The position numbers and the translations under genes were made by a program. This document shows positions 1 to 4,755 of a stretch of 5,258 nt of DNA, piece after piece. Below the pieces are notes generated by a model. That model worked only from the letters and a program-made list of their open reading frames with translations, did no database searches and was not told the origin of the DNA. The stretch is from NCBI GenBank assembly GCA_030637775.1, contig DAOWFY010000083.1, positions 1-5,258 of the forward strand, written 5' to 3'. Every line of letters starts with the position of its first letter. Positions within the stretch are counted from its first letter, which is position 1. Source of the stretch: DAOVGU01 sp030637775 [NCBI: bacterium] (lineage in GTDB: Bacteria; Ratteibacteria; UBA8468).

Positions 1-1019
1 CTACTACGATCAATATTCCCGATACCGTTGGCTATACCATACCCGAGGAATTTGGTAAACTCATTGCCTACATCAGGAAAAACTTACCGATCAGTATTAC
101 CATCAGTATCCATTGCCATAATGACTTAGGCCTGGCGGTAGCCAATTCCCTCTCCGCCATTGAGAATGGCGCAACGCAAGTGGAATGCACCATCAACGGC
201 ATTGGAGAAAGGGCGGGTAATGCCGCTTTAGAGGAGATTGTGATGGCGCTGAGAACAAGAGAGGATATCCTGGGGAAGAAAACAAAAATTCTTATCTCCG
301 AAATTTGTCCTGCCAGCAAATTGGTTAGTTCTCTCACCGGCATTCCTGTTCAGCCAAATAAGGCAATTGTGGGAGAGAATGCCTTCCGGCATGAGGCAGG
401 AATTCATCAGGATGGATTGTTGAAGAAAAGAACCACCTATGAAATCATCGACCCGAAGAAAATTGGCTTAAAAGGAAGTGAACTCGTTCTTGGCAAACAT
501 TCCGGAAGGCATGCCTTTTGGAAACGGATAGCGGAGCTTGGTTATCATCTCAAGCAGAAAGAGTTAGAGAAAATATTTTTCCGCTTCAAAAGATTAGCCG
601 ATAAGAAGAAGGAGGTTACCGACAGCGACCTTATCGCCATTCTGGAGGAGGAGACAACTCCCCTGCCCCAGGTCTATAGCCTTCTCTATTTTCATACCAG
701 TTCAGGAACGCAGACCATTCCTACGGCCACCATTAAATTAAAGAAAAATGGCAAGATTTTAGAGGATGCTTCCTGCGGGGATGGTCCGGTGGATGCGGCC
801 TATCGCACCATCGATAGAATGGTGGGATTAAAGAGTCGCCTCCTTGACTACAAAATCAAAGCGGTAACCTCGGGAAAGGATGCTCTGGGAGAGGTCTCTT
901 TAAAATTAGAGATTAAAAAGAGGATTGTGGCCGGCAGGGCGGTGAGCACCGACATTATTGAGGCCAGTGCCAAGGCCTACCTCAATGCCATTAATCGCTA
1001 CTTAGCAACTAAGAAATGA
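1..1019 (+). CDS. leuA: 2-isopropylmalate synthase, 5' end missing (cut by window edge)
   Basis: Catalyses the committed step of leucine synthesis in the cytoplasm: acetyl-CoA plus 2-oxoisovalerate gives 2-isopropylmalate. The reading frame is open from the left edge (first full codon at 3) and gives 338 residues, against about 510 for a full bacterial LeuA, so roughly the first third is outside. The visible part starts late in the TIM barrel with DTVGY. It then carries the metal-binding HCHND (bases 111-125) and NGIGERAGN. The middle holds HEAGIHQDG and GKHSGRHAF, typical of the linker subdomains. From about fragment residue 225 to the end lies the C-terminal leucine-sensing dimer domain, including [13 protein letters not shown], so the enzyme is probably feedback-inhibited by leucine (family knowledge). 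Internal GTG/ATG codons around 180-243 are not real starts, since conserved barrel motifs lie upstream. It ends in a 4-nt ATGA overlap with leuC. Homocitrate or citramalate synthase are less likely given the leu context. Confidence 0.96.
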
Positions 1020-2227
1020 CGATTACGGAGAAGATTTTAGCAGCACACTCTGGTAAAAAAGAGGTAGTCCCTGGAGATTTCATCTTAGCAGATGTTGATT
1101 TGGCTTTGGGTAATGATATTACGGCACCGGCAGCAATTAGGGAATTTAAAAAAGCAGGCGGTAAAAAGGTTTTTGACCCGGAAAAGATTGTTTTAATCCC
1201 TGACCATTTTTCCCCGGCCAAGGATTTAGAGAGCGCGCAATTGGCGAAAAGGTTAAAACTATTTGCCCAACAGCAGAAGATTCCTCATTTCTATGAGATA
1301 GGACGGATGGGGATTGAGCATGCCCTTATTCCGGAAAAAGGTCTTGTTTTGCCGGGAAATTTAGTTGTGGGAGCCGATTCCCATACCTGCACCTATGGGG
1401 CAGTTGGCGCCTTTGCCACCGGAGTCGGCAGTACCGATTTAGCCGCAGTCTTCATTAGCGGTAAATGCTGGTTTAAGGTGCCGGCTACCTTTAAATTCAT
1501 CTACTACGGAAAATTACCAAGATGGACAGGGGGAAAGGACATTATCCTTCACACCATTGGCGATATTGGTGTGGACGGAGCGCATTACAAAGCGATGGAA
1601 TTTAGCGGCGAGACAATCAAAAATCTTGCGATGGATGACAGATTTACCCTCTGCAATATGGCAATTGAGGCGGGAGCAAAGAATGGAATCATTGAGCCGG
1701 GTGAGATTACCTGGAAAAGTGACGCAGATAGCAACTATAGCGAAGTAAAAGAATACGATGTCAGCAAAATTGAGCCCCAGGTTGCCTTTCCTTCCTCCCC
1801 CAGCAATATAAGACCTATCGGTGAAGTTGGGGAGATCCCTATTGACCAGGTTGTGATTGGCTCCTGCACCAATGGGAGGATTTCTGATCTTCGGATCGCG
1901 GCCTCAATTCTGAAGAAAAAAAAGATTCATCCAGAAGTGCGAACAATCATCATTCCCGCAACCCAGAGGATTTACTTAGATGCACTTAGAGAGGGATTAA
2001 TAGACTTATTTATCAAGGCCGGCTGTATTGTCAGTACCCCTACCTGTGGTCCCTGTCTTGGGGGACATATGGGAGTTCTTAGCGAAGGGGAGGTCTGTCT
2101 TTCCACAACAAACCGAAACTTTATTGGAAGGATGGGAAGCCCTAAAAGCAAAGTCTATCTTGCCAATCCTGCTGTGGCAGCCGCTTCTGCAATAAAAGGG
2201 AGGATTGCCCATCCAGAGAGGATATAA
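1016..2227 (+). CDS. leuC: 3-isopropylmalate dehydratase (isomerase) large subunit
   Basis: Large, iron-sulfur subunit of isopropylmalate isomerase, an aconitase-family enzyme that with LeuD converts 2-isopropylmalate to 3-isopropylmalate by dehydration and rehydration. It has 403 residues. Visible motifs: DHFSP near residue 63, [23 protein letters not shown] at about 119-141, and the three cluster ligands C284 (GSCTNGR), C344 and C347 ([13 protein letters not shown]). The C-terminal [12 protein letters not shown] and the [10 protein letters not shown] segment are also classical. The protein matches the shorter, separate-subunit LeuC type that pairs with a roughly 165-residue LeuD. It is a little short: the segment after residue 228 ([11 protein letters not shown]) lacks about 15-20 residues compared with Thermotoga LeuC as I recall it, but no catalytic motif is lost. 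The ATG overlaps the leuA stop (ATGA) with no clear Shine-Dalgarno site, so translation is probably coupled to leuA. A homoaconitase role is possible for the family but unlikely here. Confidence 0.97.
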
Positions 2228-2550
2228 TGGAAAGAATGCGGGTAAGGCTGTATATTCCTAACTACTGGGTTGAAGGAACAATCTTTTTTGCTGAAACCAA
2301 GGAGGCCTCTGAGTTTATGGGTATAAAACCAAAATTATTTCTCCCCATTATAGAAGCAACAATCTATTCTCTCAAGAGCAATAGAGTCCTCAGCCACCCC
2401 AAATTCTTAGCCCTCAACAGAAAAAGTATTGAAAGGATTGAGCCGGTGAACAAAGAAGATATAAAAAAGGTATTTGTTATCTGGAGTTCCTGGCTGAGGG
2501 GAGAAATTCAGATTCCTCAACCGGTAGGAGATGGAGTGTTAGAAAAATAA
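2227..2550 (+). CDS. short conserved protein of unknown function, first of a tandem paralogous pair
   Basis: A 107-residue protein that I cannot assign a function. Residues 5-74 align without a gap to residues 9-78 of the next gene, with 32 of 70 positions identical. Shared blocks are IPxY, EGTIF, FxPI, ATIYS, PKF and LNRxSI. Alternating hydrophobic residues suggest a small all-beta fold; there is no signal peptide, membrane segment or cysteine motif. The pattern resembles a family of small uncharacterised bacterial proteins, perhaps Pfam DUF6812, but that name is from memory. This copy has a C-terminal extension of about 33 residues (VNKEDIKKVFVIWSSWLRGE and onward) missing from its partner. 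The ATG at 2227 shares one base with the leuC stop (TAATG) and has AGAGGA 4 nt upstream; a second in-frame ATG at 2236 is less favoured. The layout implies translation coupled to leuC, so a role linked to the isomerase or to its expression is possible but unproven. Confidence 0.85.
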   Translation: MERMRVRLYIPNYWVEGTIFFAETKEASEFMGIKPKLFLPIIEATIYSLKSNRVLSHPKFLALNRKSIERIEPVNKEDIKKVFVIWSSWLRGEIQIPQPVGDGVLEK

Positions 2551-2554
2551 AAAT

Positions 2555-2560
2555 AGGAGG
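2555..2560 (+). promoter_or_regulatory. strong Shine-Dalgarno site for the second small gene
   Basis: AGGAGG lies 8 nt before the ATG at 2569, inside the 18-nt gap that follows the first small gene. It is the best-placed consensus ribosome site in the window. It fixes the start of the second paralogue and suggests fresh initiation here rather than coupling to the gene upstream. Confidence 0.85.
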
Positions 2561-2568
2561 AAAAGATT

Positions 2569-2823
2569 ATGCCGACGGAGCAAGAGGAGGTGAGGGTAAC
2601 GGTTTTTATTCCCAAATACCGCATTGAAGGGACAATCTTTATGTATCAAGGAGGTCGCCTCTCCGACTTTCTCAACACAACAACTAAGGCCTTCGTTCCC
2701 ATTACCAATGCCACCATCTATTCCGAGCAAGATAATAAGGTTATGGGAAGGCCAAAATTTATGGGATTAAACAGAAATTCGATCATTATGCTCTACAAGG
2801 TAGAGGAGGCAGGTGCAGTTTAA
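2569..2823 (+). CDS. short conserved protein of unknown function, second of a tandem paralogous pair
   Basis: An 84-residue protein, homologous to the preceding gene over nearly its whole length (32 identities in 70 ungapped positions). It seems the less diverged copy: it keeps a GGRLSDFLN segment at residues 28-36, which I associate with this small-protein family, where the first copy reads differently. Other conserved blocks are FIPKYRIEGTIF, FVPITNATIYS and PKFMGLNRNSI. Predicted as a compact beta-rich cytoplasmic domain without membrane segments. Possible DUF6812 membership is unverified. Start ATG 2569 is supported by an AGGAGG 8 nt upstream. Its last 11 bases overlap the start of leuD, and its final codons carry the leuD ribosome site. 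Position between leuC and leuD suggests co-expression with the isomerase subunits; function unknown. Confidence 0.87.
   Translation: MPTEQEEVRVTVFIPKYRIEGTIFMYQGGRLSDFLNTTTKAFVPITNATIYSEQDNKVMGRPKFMGLNRNSIIMLYKVEEAGAV
2803..2809 (+). promoter_or_regulatory. Shine-Dalgarno site for leuD at unusually short spacing
   Basis: GAGGAGG within the last codons of the second small gene, only 3 nt before the GTG at 2813. The in-frame TAG at 2801-2803 rules out any start further upstream, and the N-terminus from this GTG matches the LeuD family, so the start stands despite the short spacing. The upstream gene's TAA lies 6 nt downstream of the GTG, so termination-reinitiation probably contributes. Confidence 0.7.
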
Positions 2824-3307
2824 GGGAAAGATCTGGAAGTTTCCGGATAATATCAATACCGATGAGATTATTCCGGCAAAGTATTTAGTTACATCCGATC
2901 AAAAAGAGCTGTCGAAACATTGCTTAGAGATTATTCATCCGGAATTCCCAAAAAGAGTGAAAAAGGGCGATATTATTGTGGCCGGAGAGAATTTTGGCTG
3001 CGGCTCTTCAAGGGAGCACGCCGCCCTTGCCATTAAAGGGACGGGTATCTCCTGTATCATTGCTAAGAGTTTTGCCAGAATTTTCTTCCGCAACTGTATC
3101 AATATTGGATTGCCGATCTTAGAGGAGAAAAAACTTCCTGAATCCTGTAGTCAAGGGGATATTATAAAGATTGATTTGGCAAAAGGAGTTATTAAAAATC
3201 TTTCTAACGAGAAGGAATCCGCCATTGGCGGATTCCCCCCGTTTCTTCAAGAGATTATAAGCAGTGGGGGTTTAATGAAATGGGTAAAAAAGAAGGTTAT
3301 AAGATAG
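2813..3307 (+). CDS. leuD: 3-isopropylmalate dehydratase (isomerase) small subunit
   Basis: Small swivelling-domain subunit of isopropylmalate isomerase, partner of LeuC. Its 164 residues match the short LeuD type (about 160-170), not the roughly 200-residue enterobacterial form. Motifs: NINTDEIIPAKYL at 13-25 and GENFGCGSSREHA at 58-70, both in the substrate-facing part of the family, then FPPFLQEI and GGLMKW near the C-terminus. The specificity loop reads YLVT (24-27). Valine rather than arginine at the third place favours isopropylmalate over homoaconitate in related archaeal enzymes. It starts with GTG, forced by an upstream in-frame stop at 2801. A perfect palindrome at 3214-3236 sits in frame and encodes ESAIGGF. 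The last 28 bases overlap leuB and give a basic tail, KWVKKKVIR. Confidence 0.96.
   Translation: MQFKGKIWKFPDNINTDEIIPAKYLVTSDQKELSKHCLEIIHPEFPKRVKKGDIIVAGENFGCGSSREHAALAIKGTGISCIIAKSFARIFFRNCINIGLPILEEKKLPESCSQGDIIKIDLAKGVIKNLSNEKESAIGGFPPFLQEIISSGGLMKWVKKKVIR
3214..3236. repeat. perfect 10-bp inverted repeat (hairpin) inside leuD
   Basis: The left arm GGAATCCGCC (3214-3223) and right arm GGCGGATTCC (3227-3236) are exact reverse complements separated by ATT. It lies in the leuD coding frame, 44 nt before the leuB start. A C-run follows the right arm rather than a T-run, so it is not a typical intrinsic terminator. It may be a transcript hairpin or one copy of a dispersed palindromic repeat. 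I saw no second copy in this window. Confidence 0.8.
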
Positions 3308-4347
3308 GCATTATCCCGGGCGATGGGGTTGGTCCCGAGGTAATCAGAGAAGGTTTAAAGGTGCTGAAGAGCGCCGGAGAAAAGTTCGGTATAAAATATG
3401 ATTTTGTCAACTATGATTTTGGTGGTGAGCGCTATCTAAAGACTGGTGAGGTTCTTCCCGATTCTACTCTAAAAGAATTTAAGCAATTAGATGCTATTCT
3501 TCTTGGTGCGGTAGGTCATCCCGAAGTAAAGACCGGAATTTTAGAGCAAGGGCTTTTATTAAAGATAAGGTTTGGCTTAGACCAATATATCAATCTTCGT
3601 CCGGTAAAGTTATTTCCTGGAGTTGACACACCTTTGGCAAATAAGAAACCGGAGGATATTGACTATTGTGTCGTGAGGGAAAATACCGAAGGCGCCTATT
3701 GCGGTAGCGGTGGGTTTTTCAAAAAGGGAACATCTGATGAAATAGCCATCCAGGAAAGCATTAATACTAAAAAAGGGGTGGAGAGATGTGTGCGCTATGC
3801 CTATGAACTTACTAAAGGAAGAAATAAAAAGAAGGAGCTTACCTTGAGTGATAAAGCAAATGTTCTTACCTTTGAAGGCGACTTATGGAGAAGAACCTTT
3901 AGGCAGGTAGGGAAAGAATATCCCGAGATCAAACAAAATTTTGCTCTTGTTGATGCAACCTGTATGTGGATGGTGAAGAATCCGGAATGGTTCGATGTCA
4001 TCGTTACCTCTAACCTTTTTGGAGATATTATTACCGATCTTGCCGCGGTAACTCAAGGAGGTATGGGTATTGCTGCGGGAGCCAATATCAATCCCGAAGG
4101 GGTCAGTATGTTTGAGCCGATTCATGGCAGTGCTCCCAAATATACCGGTAAGAATGTGATCTGTCCTCTCGCTACCATTGCTGCCGGGGCAATGATGTTA
4201 AAAATTTTGGGTGAAGAAGAGGCGGCAAAGACAATTGAGAAGGCGATAATGAAGTTAACCGGCGAAGGCCGCATCAAGAGTCTGCAGGCAGGCAGAATGG
4301 GACTTTCCACCGAAGAAGTCGGTGACTTAGTGGCAAAGTTTATATAG
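3280..4347 (+). CDS. leuB: 3-isopropylmalate dehydrogenase (type 2-like)
   Basis: NAD-dependent, metal-requiring oxidative decarboxylation of 3-isopropylmalate to 2-oxoisocaproate (via 2-isopropyl-3-oxosuccinate), the last leu-specific step. It has 355 residues. Visible: the N-terminal GIIPGDGVGPEV (10-21); substrate arginines in the LKIRF and NLRP segments (R97, R107) with a hydrophobic EQGLL just before them, as in isopropylmalate enzymes; RENTEGAY at 133-140; K192; D225; and the metal-site aspartates in NLFGDIITDLAA (D249, D253). The cofactor region follows, with EPIHGSAP at 279-286. The RENTEG, GSGG and LLLKIRFGLDQYINLRP wording is closer to actinobacterial type LeuB than to the E. coli/Thermus RELTGGIYFG type. 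Tartrate or homoisocitrate dehydrogenase is an alternative within the family, but position after leuCD favours LeuB. The ATG at 3280 lies 28 nt inside leuD with only a weak G-rich ribosome site (3266-3270); no alternative start was seen nearby upstream. Confidence 0.95.
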   Translation: MGKKEGYKIGIIPGDGVGPEVIREGLKVLKSAGEKFGIKYDFVNYDFGGERYLKTGEVLPDSTLKEFKQLDAILLGAVGHPEVKTGILEQGLLLKIRFGLDQYINLRPVKLFPGVDTPLANKKPEDIDYCVVRENTEGAYCGSGGFFKKGTSDEIAIQESINTKKGVERCVRYAYELTKGRNKKKELTLSDKANVLTFEGDLWRRTFRQVGKEYPEIKQNFALVDATCMWMVKNPEWFDVIVTSNLFGDIITDLAAVTQGGMGIAAGANINPEGVSMFEPIHGSAPKYTGKNVICPLATIAAGAMMLKILGEEEAAKTIEKAIMKLTGEGRIKSLQAGRMGLSTEEVGDLVAKFI

Positions 4348-4362
4348 ATTAATAGAGATAAA

Positions 4363-4755
4363 ATGAAAAAAGCAAAAGAAGTCTATCGAGGAGAAGAGAA
4401 AAGAAAATATATTCGTGTAAGCATTCCATTTACCTTTATTCATAAAAAGGAAAATGAAGATTGGCAAGAGGCGTCGACCACTAAGGATATTAGTTTAGGA
4501 GGACTTCGTTTTATTGCCTCCAAACTTCTTTCTAATGCCTCGCTGGAATTGGAGATCTGGATTCCAACTTCTATTGGTTCTCATATTAAGTTGAAGGCAA
4601 AGGTTGTTTGGCAGAAGAAAAAGAAAAAAGGCATTTTCTCTAAAGAATACGAAACTGGATTATCCTTCGTAGAGACTGAAAAGGACAGGAAAGATTTAGG
4701 GTTCTTTTTAGAGAAGAGTTTAGAAAAGAGGTTCCTTCTCAATGAAAAAATATAA
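4363..4755 (+). CDS. single-domain PilZ protein, predicted c-di-GMP receptor
   Basis: A 130-residue soluble protein matching the PilZ fold. The family's c-di-GMP signature is complete: RxxxR at R14-R18 (RKYIR) in the N-terminal switch, and DxSxxG at D42-S44-G47 (DISLGG, followed by LRF). The rest of the beta-barrel shows as LELEIWIP (61-68), IKLKAKVVW (75-83) and YETGLSFVE (96-104), ending in a charged helix. No second domain is attached, so by analogy it would act as a c-di-GMP-responsive adaptor on a partner protein; that partner is not evident here. A lysine run at 85-89 lies between the last two strands. It starts 15 nt after leuB with a poor ribosome site (AGAG-like), and its 3' end overlaps asd by 14 nt, so it is probably co-transcribed with amino acid genes. 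A metabolic role is inference; co-location may only be operon packing. Confidence 0.92.
   Translation: MKKAKEVYRGEEKRKYIRVSIPFTFIHKKENEDWQEASTTKDISLGGLRFIASKLLSNASLELEIWIPTSIGSHIKLKAKVVWQKKKKKGIFSKEYETGLSFVETEKDRKDLGFFLEKSLEKRFLLNEKI

Follow-up and report, generated by a model that had tools for sequence, protein, structure and literature searches.

A DUF6812 protein and its diverged paralogue, both with a predicted Sm-like fold, encoded between leuC and leuD

Introduction

Between leuC and leuD, the genes for the two subunits of one isomerase, the DNA analyzed here carries two short genes, designated X1 and X2. The locus raises the question of what these two proteins are, and whether their place in the leucine operon reflects a role in the isomerase, a role in regulating the operon, or neither. 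An earlier note, made from the letters alone, had left all three readings open. Profile searches, structural modelling, genome surveys and phylogenetic analyses were used to address this question.

Organization of the leu operon

The window, i.e., the whole stretch of 5,258 nt that was analyzed, consists of one whole contig and carries its genes in the order leuA-leuC-X1-X2-leuD-leuB-PilZ-domain protein (Table 1). The start of leuA is truncated by the contig end, its frame being open from base 3. With 233.4 against a required 245.85, LeuD scored just under the cut-off of the equivalog leud.

Table 1. Features located in the window, with strand and supporting evidence
Feature	Position	Strand	Evidence
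leuC, 3-isopropylmalate dehydratase large subunit	1016–2227	+	NCBIfam TIGR02083, 648 bits, over cut-off
X1, 107 aa, diverged DUF6812-type paralogue	2227–2550	+	ORF, BLASTP, profile, model
AGGAGG, probable ribosome-binding site for X2	2555–2560	+	sequence reading
X2, 84 aa, DUF6812 protein, predicted Sm-like barrel	2569–2823	+	ORF, Pfam, model
AGAGGAGG within X2, probable leuD ribosome-binding site, only 3 nt ahead of GTG	2802–2809	+	sequence reading
leuD, small subunit, GTG start	2813–3307	+	passes subfamily LEUD_arch
leuB, 3-isopropylmalate dehydrogenase, overlapping leuD	3280–4347	+	NCBIfam NF002898, 504 bits, over cut-off
PilZ-domain protein, 3′ of leuB	4363–4755		Pfam

The two small paralogue genes that the earlier note had placed between leuC and leuD were confirmed from their ORFs, and both overlaps of reading frames that it had described were found in the sequence. 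The leuC stop and the X1 ATG have one base in common (TAATG), and the final 11 nt of X2 overlap leuD from its GTG onwards. X1 and X2 are separated by a spacer of only 18 nt. No Rfam element was matched in the window, a leader or riboswitch being rejected on this ground, and no terminator-like site was found at 1900–3000.

X1 and X2 and the DUF6812 family

When compared by BLASTP, X1 and X2 were identical at 32 of 67 positions without gaps (E 3e-23), which bears out their proposed origin by duplication; the 32 identities counted previously stand, while the aligned length is 67 rather than 70 residues. The suspected relation to Pfam family DUF6812 (PF20660) proved correct for X2, which scored 46.2 bits over the whole 53-position profile (cut-off 27.1), whereas X1 stayed below this cut-off with 20.0 bits. 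Judged by these scores, X2 is a clear member of DUF6812 and X1 is a diverged copy that is still recognizable as a paralogue of X2. No credible PDB match was obtained by sequence search (best E 0.75), and no mention of 'DUF6812', 'PF20660' or the phrase 'between leuC and leuD' was found in a library of 5.39 million papers. As judged by the PHROG profiles, of which none matched beyond chance (best E 0.24), a link to phages was rejected, as was a link to plasmids, X2 giving no plasmid match.

In the second genome of the window's genus (G001), X1 and X2 are each 89% identical to those of the window. Following comparison of the two by the NG86 method, dN/dS amounted to 0.053/0.206 (~0.26) for X1, 0.053/0.463 (~0.11) for X2, 0.064/0.487 (~0.13) for leuC and ~0.10 for leuB. 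X1 and X2 are real genes under purifying selection, which is looser on X1. The X1-X2 spacer of G001, together with the last X1 residues, lies inside a repetitive element (L015 5850–5995); this 146-bp stretch had 44 matches in G001, 15 in G003, 6 in G000 (the window's genome) and 1 in G002, itself and partial matches included.

Conserved sites were scored on an alignment of 20 rows, after two X1 sequences and two near-duplicates had been left out of 24. Gly21, Arg30 and Phe42 were invariant (20/20), closely followed by Asp33 (19/20), Thr46 and Phe64 (18/20 each), and Asn36 and Asn68 (17/20 each). X2 has the loop R-L-S-D-F-L-N. X1 carries Glu, Glu and Gly at positions 30, 33 and 36, and thereby lacks the R-x-x-D-x-x-N patch of the family (Arg30/Asp33/Asn36).

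Predicted fold

AlphaFold2 models of X1 and X2 were both built from the same 4 sequences, originating from the window and L015 only, the latter being the same sequence as G001. The X2 model (pLDDT 82.5, pTM 0.72) consists of strands 5–14 and 17–26, a helix at 31–37, and strands 42–52, 58–60, 64–68 and 74–77. In the X1 model (pLDDT 75.5, pTM 0.65) an additional C-terminal helix is predicted at 76–91, another difference from the family. Both models were searched with Foldseek against 350,542 PDB chains, and the best 50 of 499 matches (X2) and the best 50 of 843 (X1) were considered. For X2, all 50 had Sm/LSm titles or were snRNP/spliceosome chains (best E 2.0e-3); for X1, this applied to 49 of the 50, the other one being a NatC chain (best E 4.1e-4). 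An E-value of 0.001 was reached by no match of X2 and by one match of X1. Using VIA-align, Z scores of X2 went up to 7.8, below the tool's trust level of 8, under which a score may reflect a common arrangement. With the archaeal Sm protein AF-Sm1 (PDB 1i4k/1i5l), X2 gave a Z of 7.7 and an rmsd of 2.1 over 62 aligned residues of 1i5l_C, at only 10% identity.

Sm/LSm proteins have an N-terminal helix before strand 1. This helix is missing in the models of X1 and X2, which both begin at strand 1 and, unlike Sm/LSm proteins, place a helix in the loop that joins strand 2 to strand 3. Neither protein matched Pfam LSM at E ≤ 1. The DUF6812 alignment was also compared by hhalign with three archaeal Sm sequences, 100 column shuffles serving as control. 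The score was 17.2, which none of the 100 shuffles equalled (mean 9.65, maximum 16.3), at an hhalign probability of 4.6%; the Sm2 half alone aligned, with the Sm2 Arg opposite Asn68. As far as can be read from the alignment, DUF6812 does not clearly conserve the residues with which Sm proteins bind RNA. An Sm-type β-barrel is predicted for X1 and X2 with moderate scores, and because the sequence support is thin and the N-terminal helix is missing, it was labelled 'Sm-like fold, predicted' and not 'Sm family member'. This predicted fold is a new result, unforeseen in the earlier note.

To our knowledge, few Sm-like proteins other than Hfq and Rof have been described in bacteria. X1 and X2 match neither Pfam profile at E ≤ 1. 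Binding to Rho is a feature of Rof; Rof was absent from the best 50 of 499 and of 843 Foldseek matches, which argues neither for nor against a relation. The Hfq profile found no match among the proteins of the window or in the genome to which the window belongs, and none of the 61 Hfq-matching genomes came from the window's phylum. As members of the phylum without DUF6812 also lack an Hfq match, the idea that X2 substitutes for Hfq was rejected. Hfq and Rof are described as small Sm-like bacterial proteins, as X1 and X2 are predicted to be, that act on RNA or on termination (PMC11018626).

These data bear on a possible cis-acting regulator, in which an Sm-like protein would bind the leu mRNA close to where leuD begins and tune the LeuC:LeuD ratio or message stability. 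The predicted fold of X1 and X2, the probable leuD ribosome-binding site inside X2, the described action of Hfq and Rof and the lack of Hfq matches throughout the phylum would all fit such a role. We nevertheless consider it doubtful: there is no Rfam element in the window and no terminator-like site around the junction, the Sm RNA-binding residues are not clearly kept, X2 is no stand-in for Hfq, and in the two leu-linked genomes of a second phylum (see below) leuC, the DUF6812 gene and leuD do not overlap.

Distribution within the phylum and family

A search with X2 in 61 genomes gave matches in 5, namely the genome of the window, three others of its family, one of them its genus mate, and, weakly, one distant genome. 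The Pfam profile matched four of the 35 genomes surveyed from the phylum, all from the window's family, and none of the other 31. In all four family genomes examined (G000–G003), X2 lies between leuC and leuD. X1 was found in the window's genus only (G000 and G001). G001 has the same order as the window, leuA-leuC-X1-X2-leuD-leuB; in G002 and G003 the order is leuC-X2-leuD-leuB without X1. The overlap of X2 with leuD is present in G000, G001 and G002, and in G003, where the leuD start is unsure, the longest ORF overlaps as well. A second LeuD-like gene in G000 has no neighbour of the X1/X2 type.

Other parts of the operon vary in this family. The leuA gene of G001 (L015 2803–4317, compared with window 180–1019) is 58% identical to that of the window, although it occupies the same place in the operon, while leuC, leuD and leuB reach 86–90% identity and the window's leuA has 86% identity to its counterpart in G002; leuA of G001 has probably been replaced. 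The PilZ-domain gene does not adjoin leuB in G002.

DUF6812 genes and leu linkage in other bacteria

Of 386 bacterial genomes sampled, 41 had a DUF6812 match at E ≤ 0.001, 36 of them over the cut-off; a second set of 386, with most matched genomes common to the first, gave 42 (37 over the cut-off). Using tblastn, leu genes were sought in 42 stretches with DUF6812, taken from 40 genomes and excluding that of the window; five of the stretches (L072, L073, L132–L134) extend only ~1.5 kb to each side; the survey left out DUF6812 places in G163, G181, G228, G300, G321 and G415 and a second one in G281. Flanking leuC and leuD were found in 5 of the 42 (G001, G002, G003, G150 and G386), no leu gene was seen in 36, and in G099 the DUF6812 gene lies beside a lone LeuD-like gene on the opposite strand. 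The ends of these two G099 genes are 88 nt apart (L055 3944–4844), and no leuC was found in the stretch. Other neighbours, named by eye, included recA/queE, mutS, recJ/valS, hisS, comF and pilC. The DUF6812 match of G053 is broken by one TAG.

G150 and G386, two members of a single genus from a second phylum, have the order leuC-DUF6812-leuD-leuB, with gaps instead of overlaps. This arrangement was seen in two of the three genomes sampled from that phylum; in the third (G287), leuD was matched just weakly and in part, where a contig ends. The refuting outcome named in the earlier note, homologues at random loci without leu linkage, is half borne out: the homologues do sit at scattered loci, and linkage is far from constant outside the window's genome, but it occurs in two phyla and in 4/4 genomes of the family. 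DUF6812 is not a leucine family; it has a leu-linked subset in two phyla.

The leuC/leuD junction and the LeuC loop

As a control, the junction was surveyed in 23 of the 31 class mates outside the family, i.e., those with a measured leuC-leuD gap. The gap was 2–147 nt in 20 of the 23, and an insert of ~1,030 nt was present in three (G029, G012 and G017). The inserts of G029 and G012 were each read as a single gene, of 337–338 aa, and the G029 protein, the one insert protein checked, matches Pfam URO-D. At the junction in G247 a 23S-rRNA-IVP protein is encoded, and G298 has a gap of ~355 nt with no forward ORF of ≥40 aa. The argument that leuC and leuD are normally adjacent, so that whatever separates them is functional, is weakened by these cases: since the junction also takes unrelated genes, placement alone does not prove that a gene serves the isomerase.

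The 337–338-aa genes belong to genus g9 and are located at L079 474–1487 (the URO-D copy) and L081 2002–3018. In L081, leuD and leuB are also separated by a gene (183–1484), whose 433-aa product matches nothing in Pfam, and G017, G027 and G025 have gaps of the same size behind leuD.

LeuC was compared in 33 readable sequences, those of G029 and G012 being too short to read. Where 31 of the 33 keep 14–20 residues, LeuC has 1 residue in the only two X1-bearing genomes, G000 and G001; in the window, the missing loop of ~14 residues would follow ...GEIT, at 1700–1715. The coincidence of this loss with X1 is suggestive, yet it amounts to a single event, possibly due to chance.

If X2, together with X1, bound nascent LeuC or LeuD and aided assembly or upkeep of the iron-sulphur cluster, one would understand why the genes stand between those of the subunits and, in the window's genus, have reading frames that overlap theirs, why X2 occupies the junction in all four family genomes examined and a DUF6812 gene does so in two genomes of a second phylum, and why both genomes with X1 have lost the LeuC loop. 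Such an accessory role is rather unlikely, given that 31 relatives in the phylum give no DUF6812 match, at least 23 of them possessing leuC and leuD, that the second LeuD-like gene of G000 lacks such a neighbour, that no leu genes were seen near most of the DUF6812 genes examined, and that the loop loss counts as a single event.

Number of insertions

In a LeuC tree of 35 rows, a clade uniting the window's family with G150 and G386 was rejected (p-AU 0.008). G162, the nearest to G150/G386 in this tree, has no insert and a leuC-leuD gap of 67 nt. Quick LeuD and LeuB trees likewise placed G150/G386 apart from the window's family, and transfer of the whole operon between the two lineages was rejected on these grounds. 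The LeuC of the window's family is nearer to foreign LeuC than to that of most class mates, and constraining the family with its class was not rejected (p-AU 0.074); transfer of leuC alone is therefore possible, as far as this tree goes. The DUF6812 tree is short, and in it a single clade of all leu-linked copies was not rejected (p-AU 0.33). Because the LeuC tree rejects one clade and the short DUF6812 tree does not resolve the matter, two insertions appear likelier than one; one old insertion with losses, or an exchange of the DUF6812 piece alone, is possible.

The genes could also be pure passengers that landed by chance in a junction tolerant of inserts, without any bearing on the operon, either once per lineage or once and then passed on. 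Other genes at the same junction in relatives agree with this, as does the single origin left standing by the short tree. Its probability is nevertheless low: the junction is filled in two phyla, X2 is retained throughout the family genomes, and the duplicate has been kept in place under purifying selection.

Proposed role

The reading that we favour, while regarding it as just as open to being wrong as right, is that of a small Sm-like protein of general function carried in the leu operon, with a secondary tie to leucine. X2 would be a single small β-barrel domain of the Sm/LSm type, in which the loop joining strand 2 to strand 3, predicted to bear a helix, carries Arg30, Asp33 and Asn36. It would form oligomers and bind a partner, either RNA or a protein. 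X1, the tandem copy, would have kept the barrel, lost the patch and gained the C-terminal helix, and because it resembles a barrel without the binding patch, it is taken to join X2 in a mixed oligomer as its structural partner. X2, lying between leuC and leuD, would be translated with them, the tie to leucine probably residing in this shared expression and not in a part of the isomerase; perhaps the Sm-like protein tunes the operon in which it rides.

Consistent with this general role are the DUF6812 score of X2, the Sm-like models, the scattered loci of the family, the lack of a match in 31 of the phylum's 35 genomes, the other genes found at the junction and the loss of the patch in X1. Several results speak against it. 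The same junction is filled in two lineages, of different phyla, that are rejected as one clade by LeuC (p-AU 0.008), which chance should rarely give, and X2 is kept there in 4/4 species of the family. The link to Sm proteins is weak at the sequence level and the models lack the N-terminal helix; all Foldseek matches of X2 have E > 0.001 and its Z scores are < 8, and both models share the same 4 sequences.

A bolder combination of these findings would make DUF6812 an unrecognized bacterial Sm-like branch that was built independently into the leuC-leuD junction in two phyla. X2, or a mixed X1-X2 oligomer in the window's genus, would then bind the leu mRNA or nascent isomerase subunits and set the amount or assembly of the isomerase, and the lost LeuC loop would mark the contact. 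We think this improbable as a whole. The supposed Sm-type fold turns DUF6812 into a testable family, of which one can ask whether its members form rings and what they bind, and the recurrent placement between leuC and leuD is a rare case of genome context suggesting a partner for an Sm-like protein.

A double DUF6812 domain within a single frame was seen in two genomes that share a genus (L047 3671–4234 and L053 4061–4510). Both of these double genes are flanked by a recJ-like and a valS-like gene, as named by eye.
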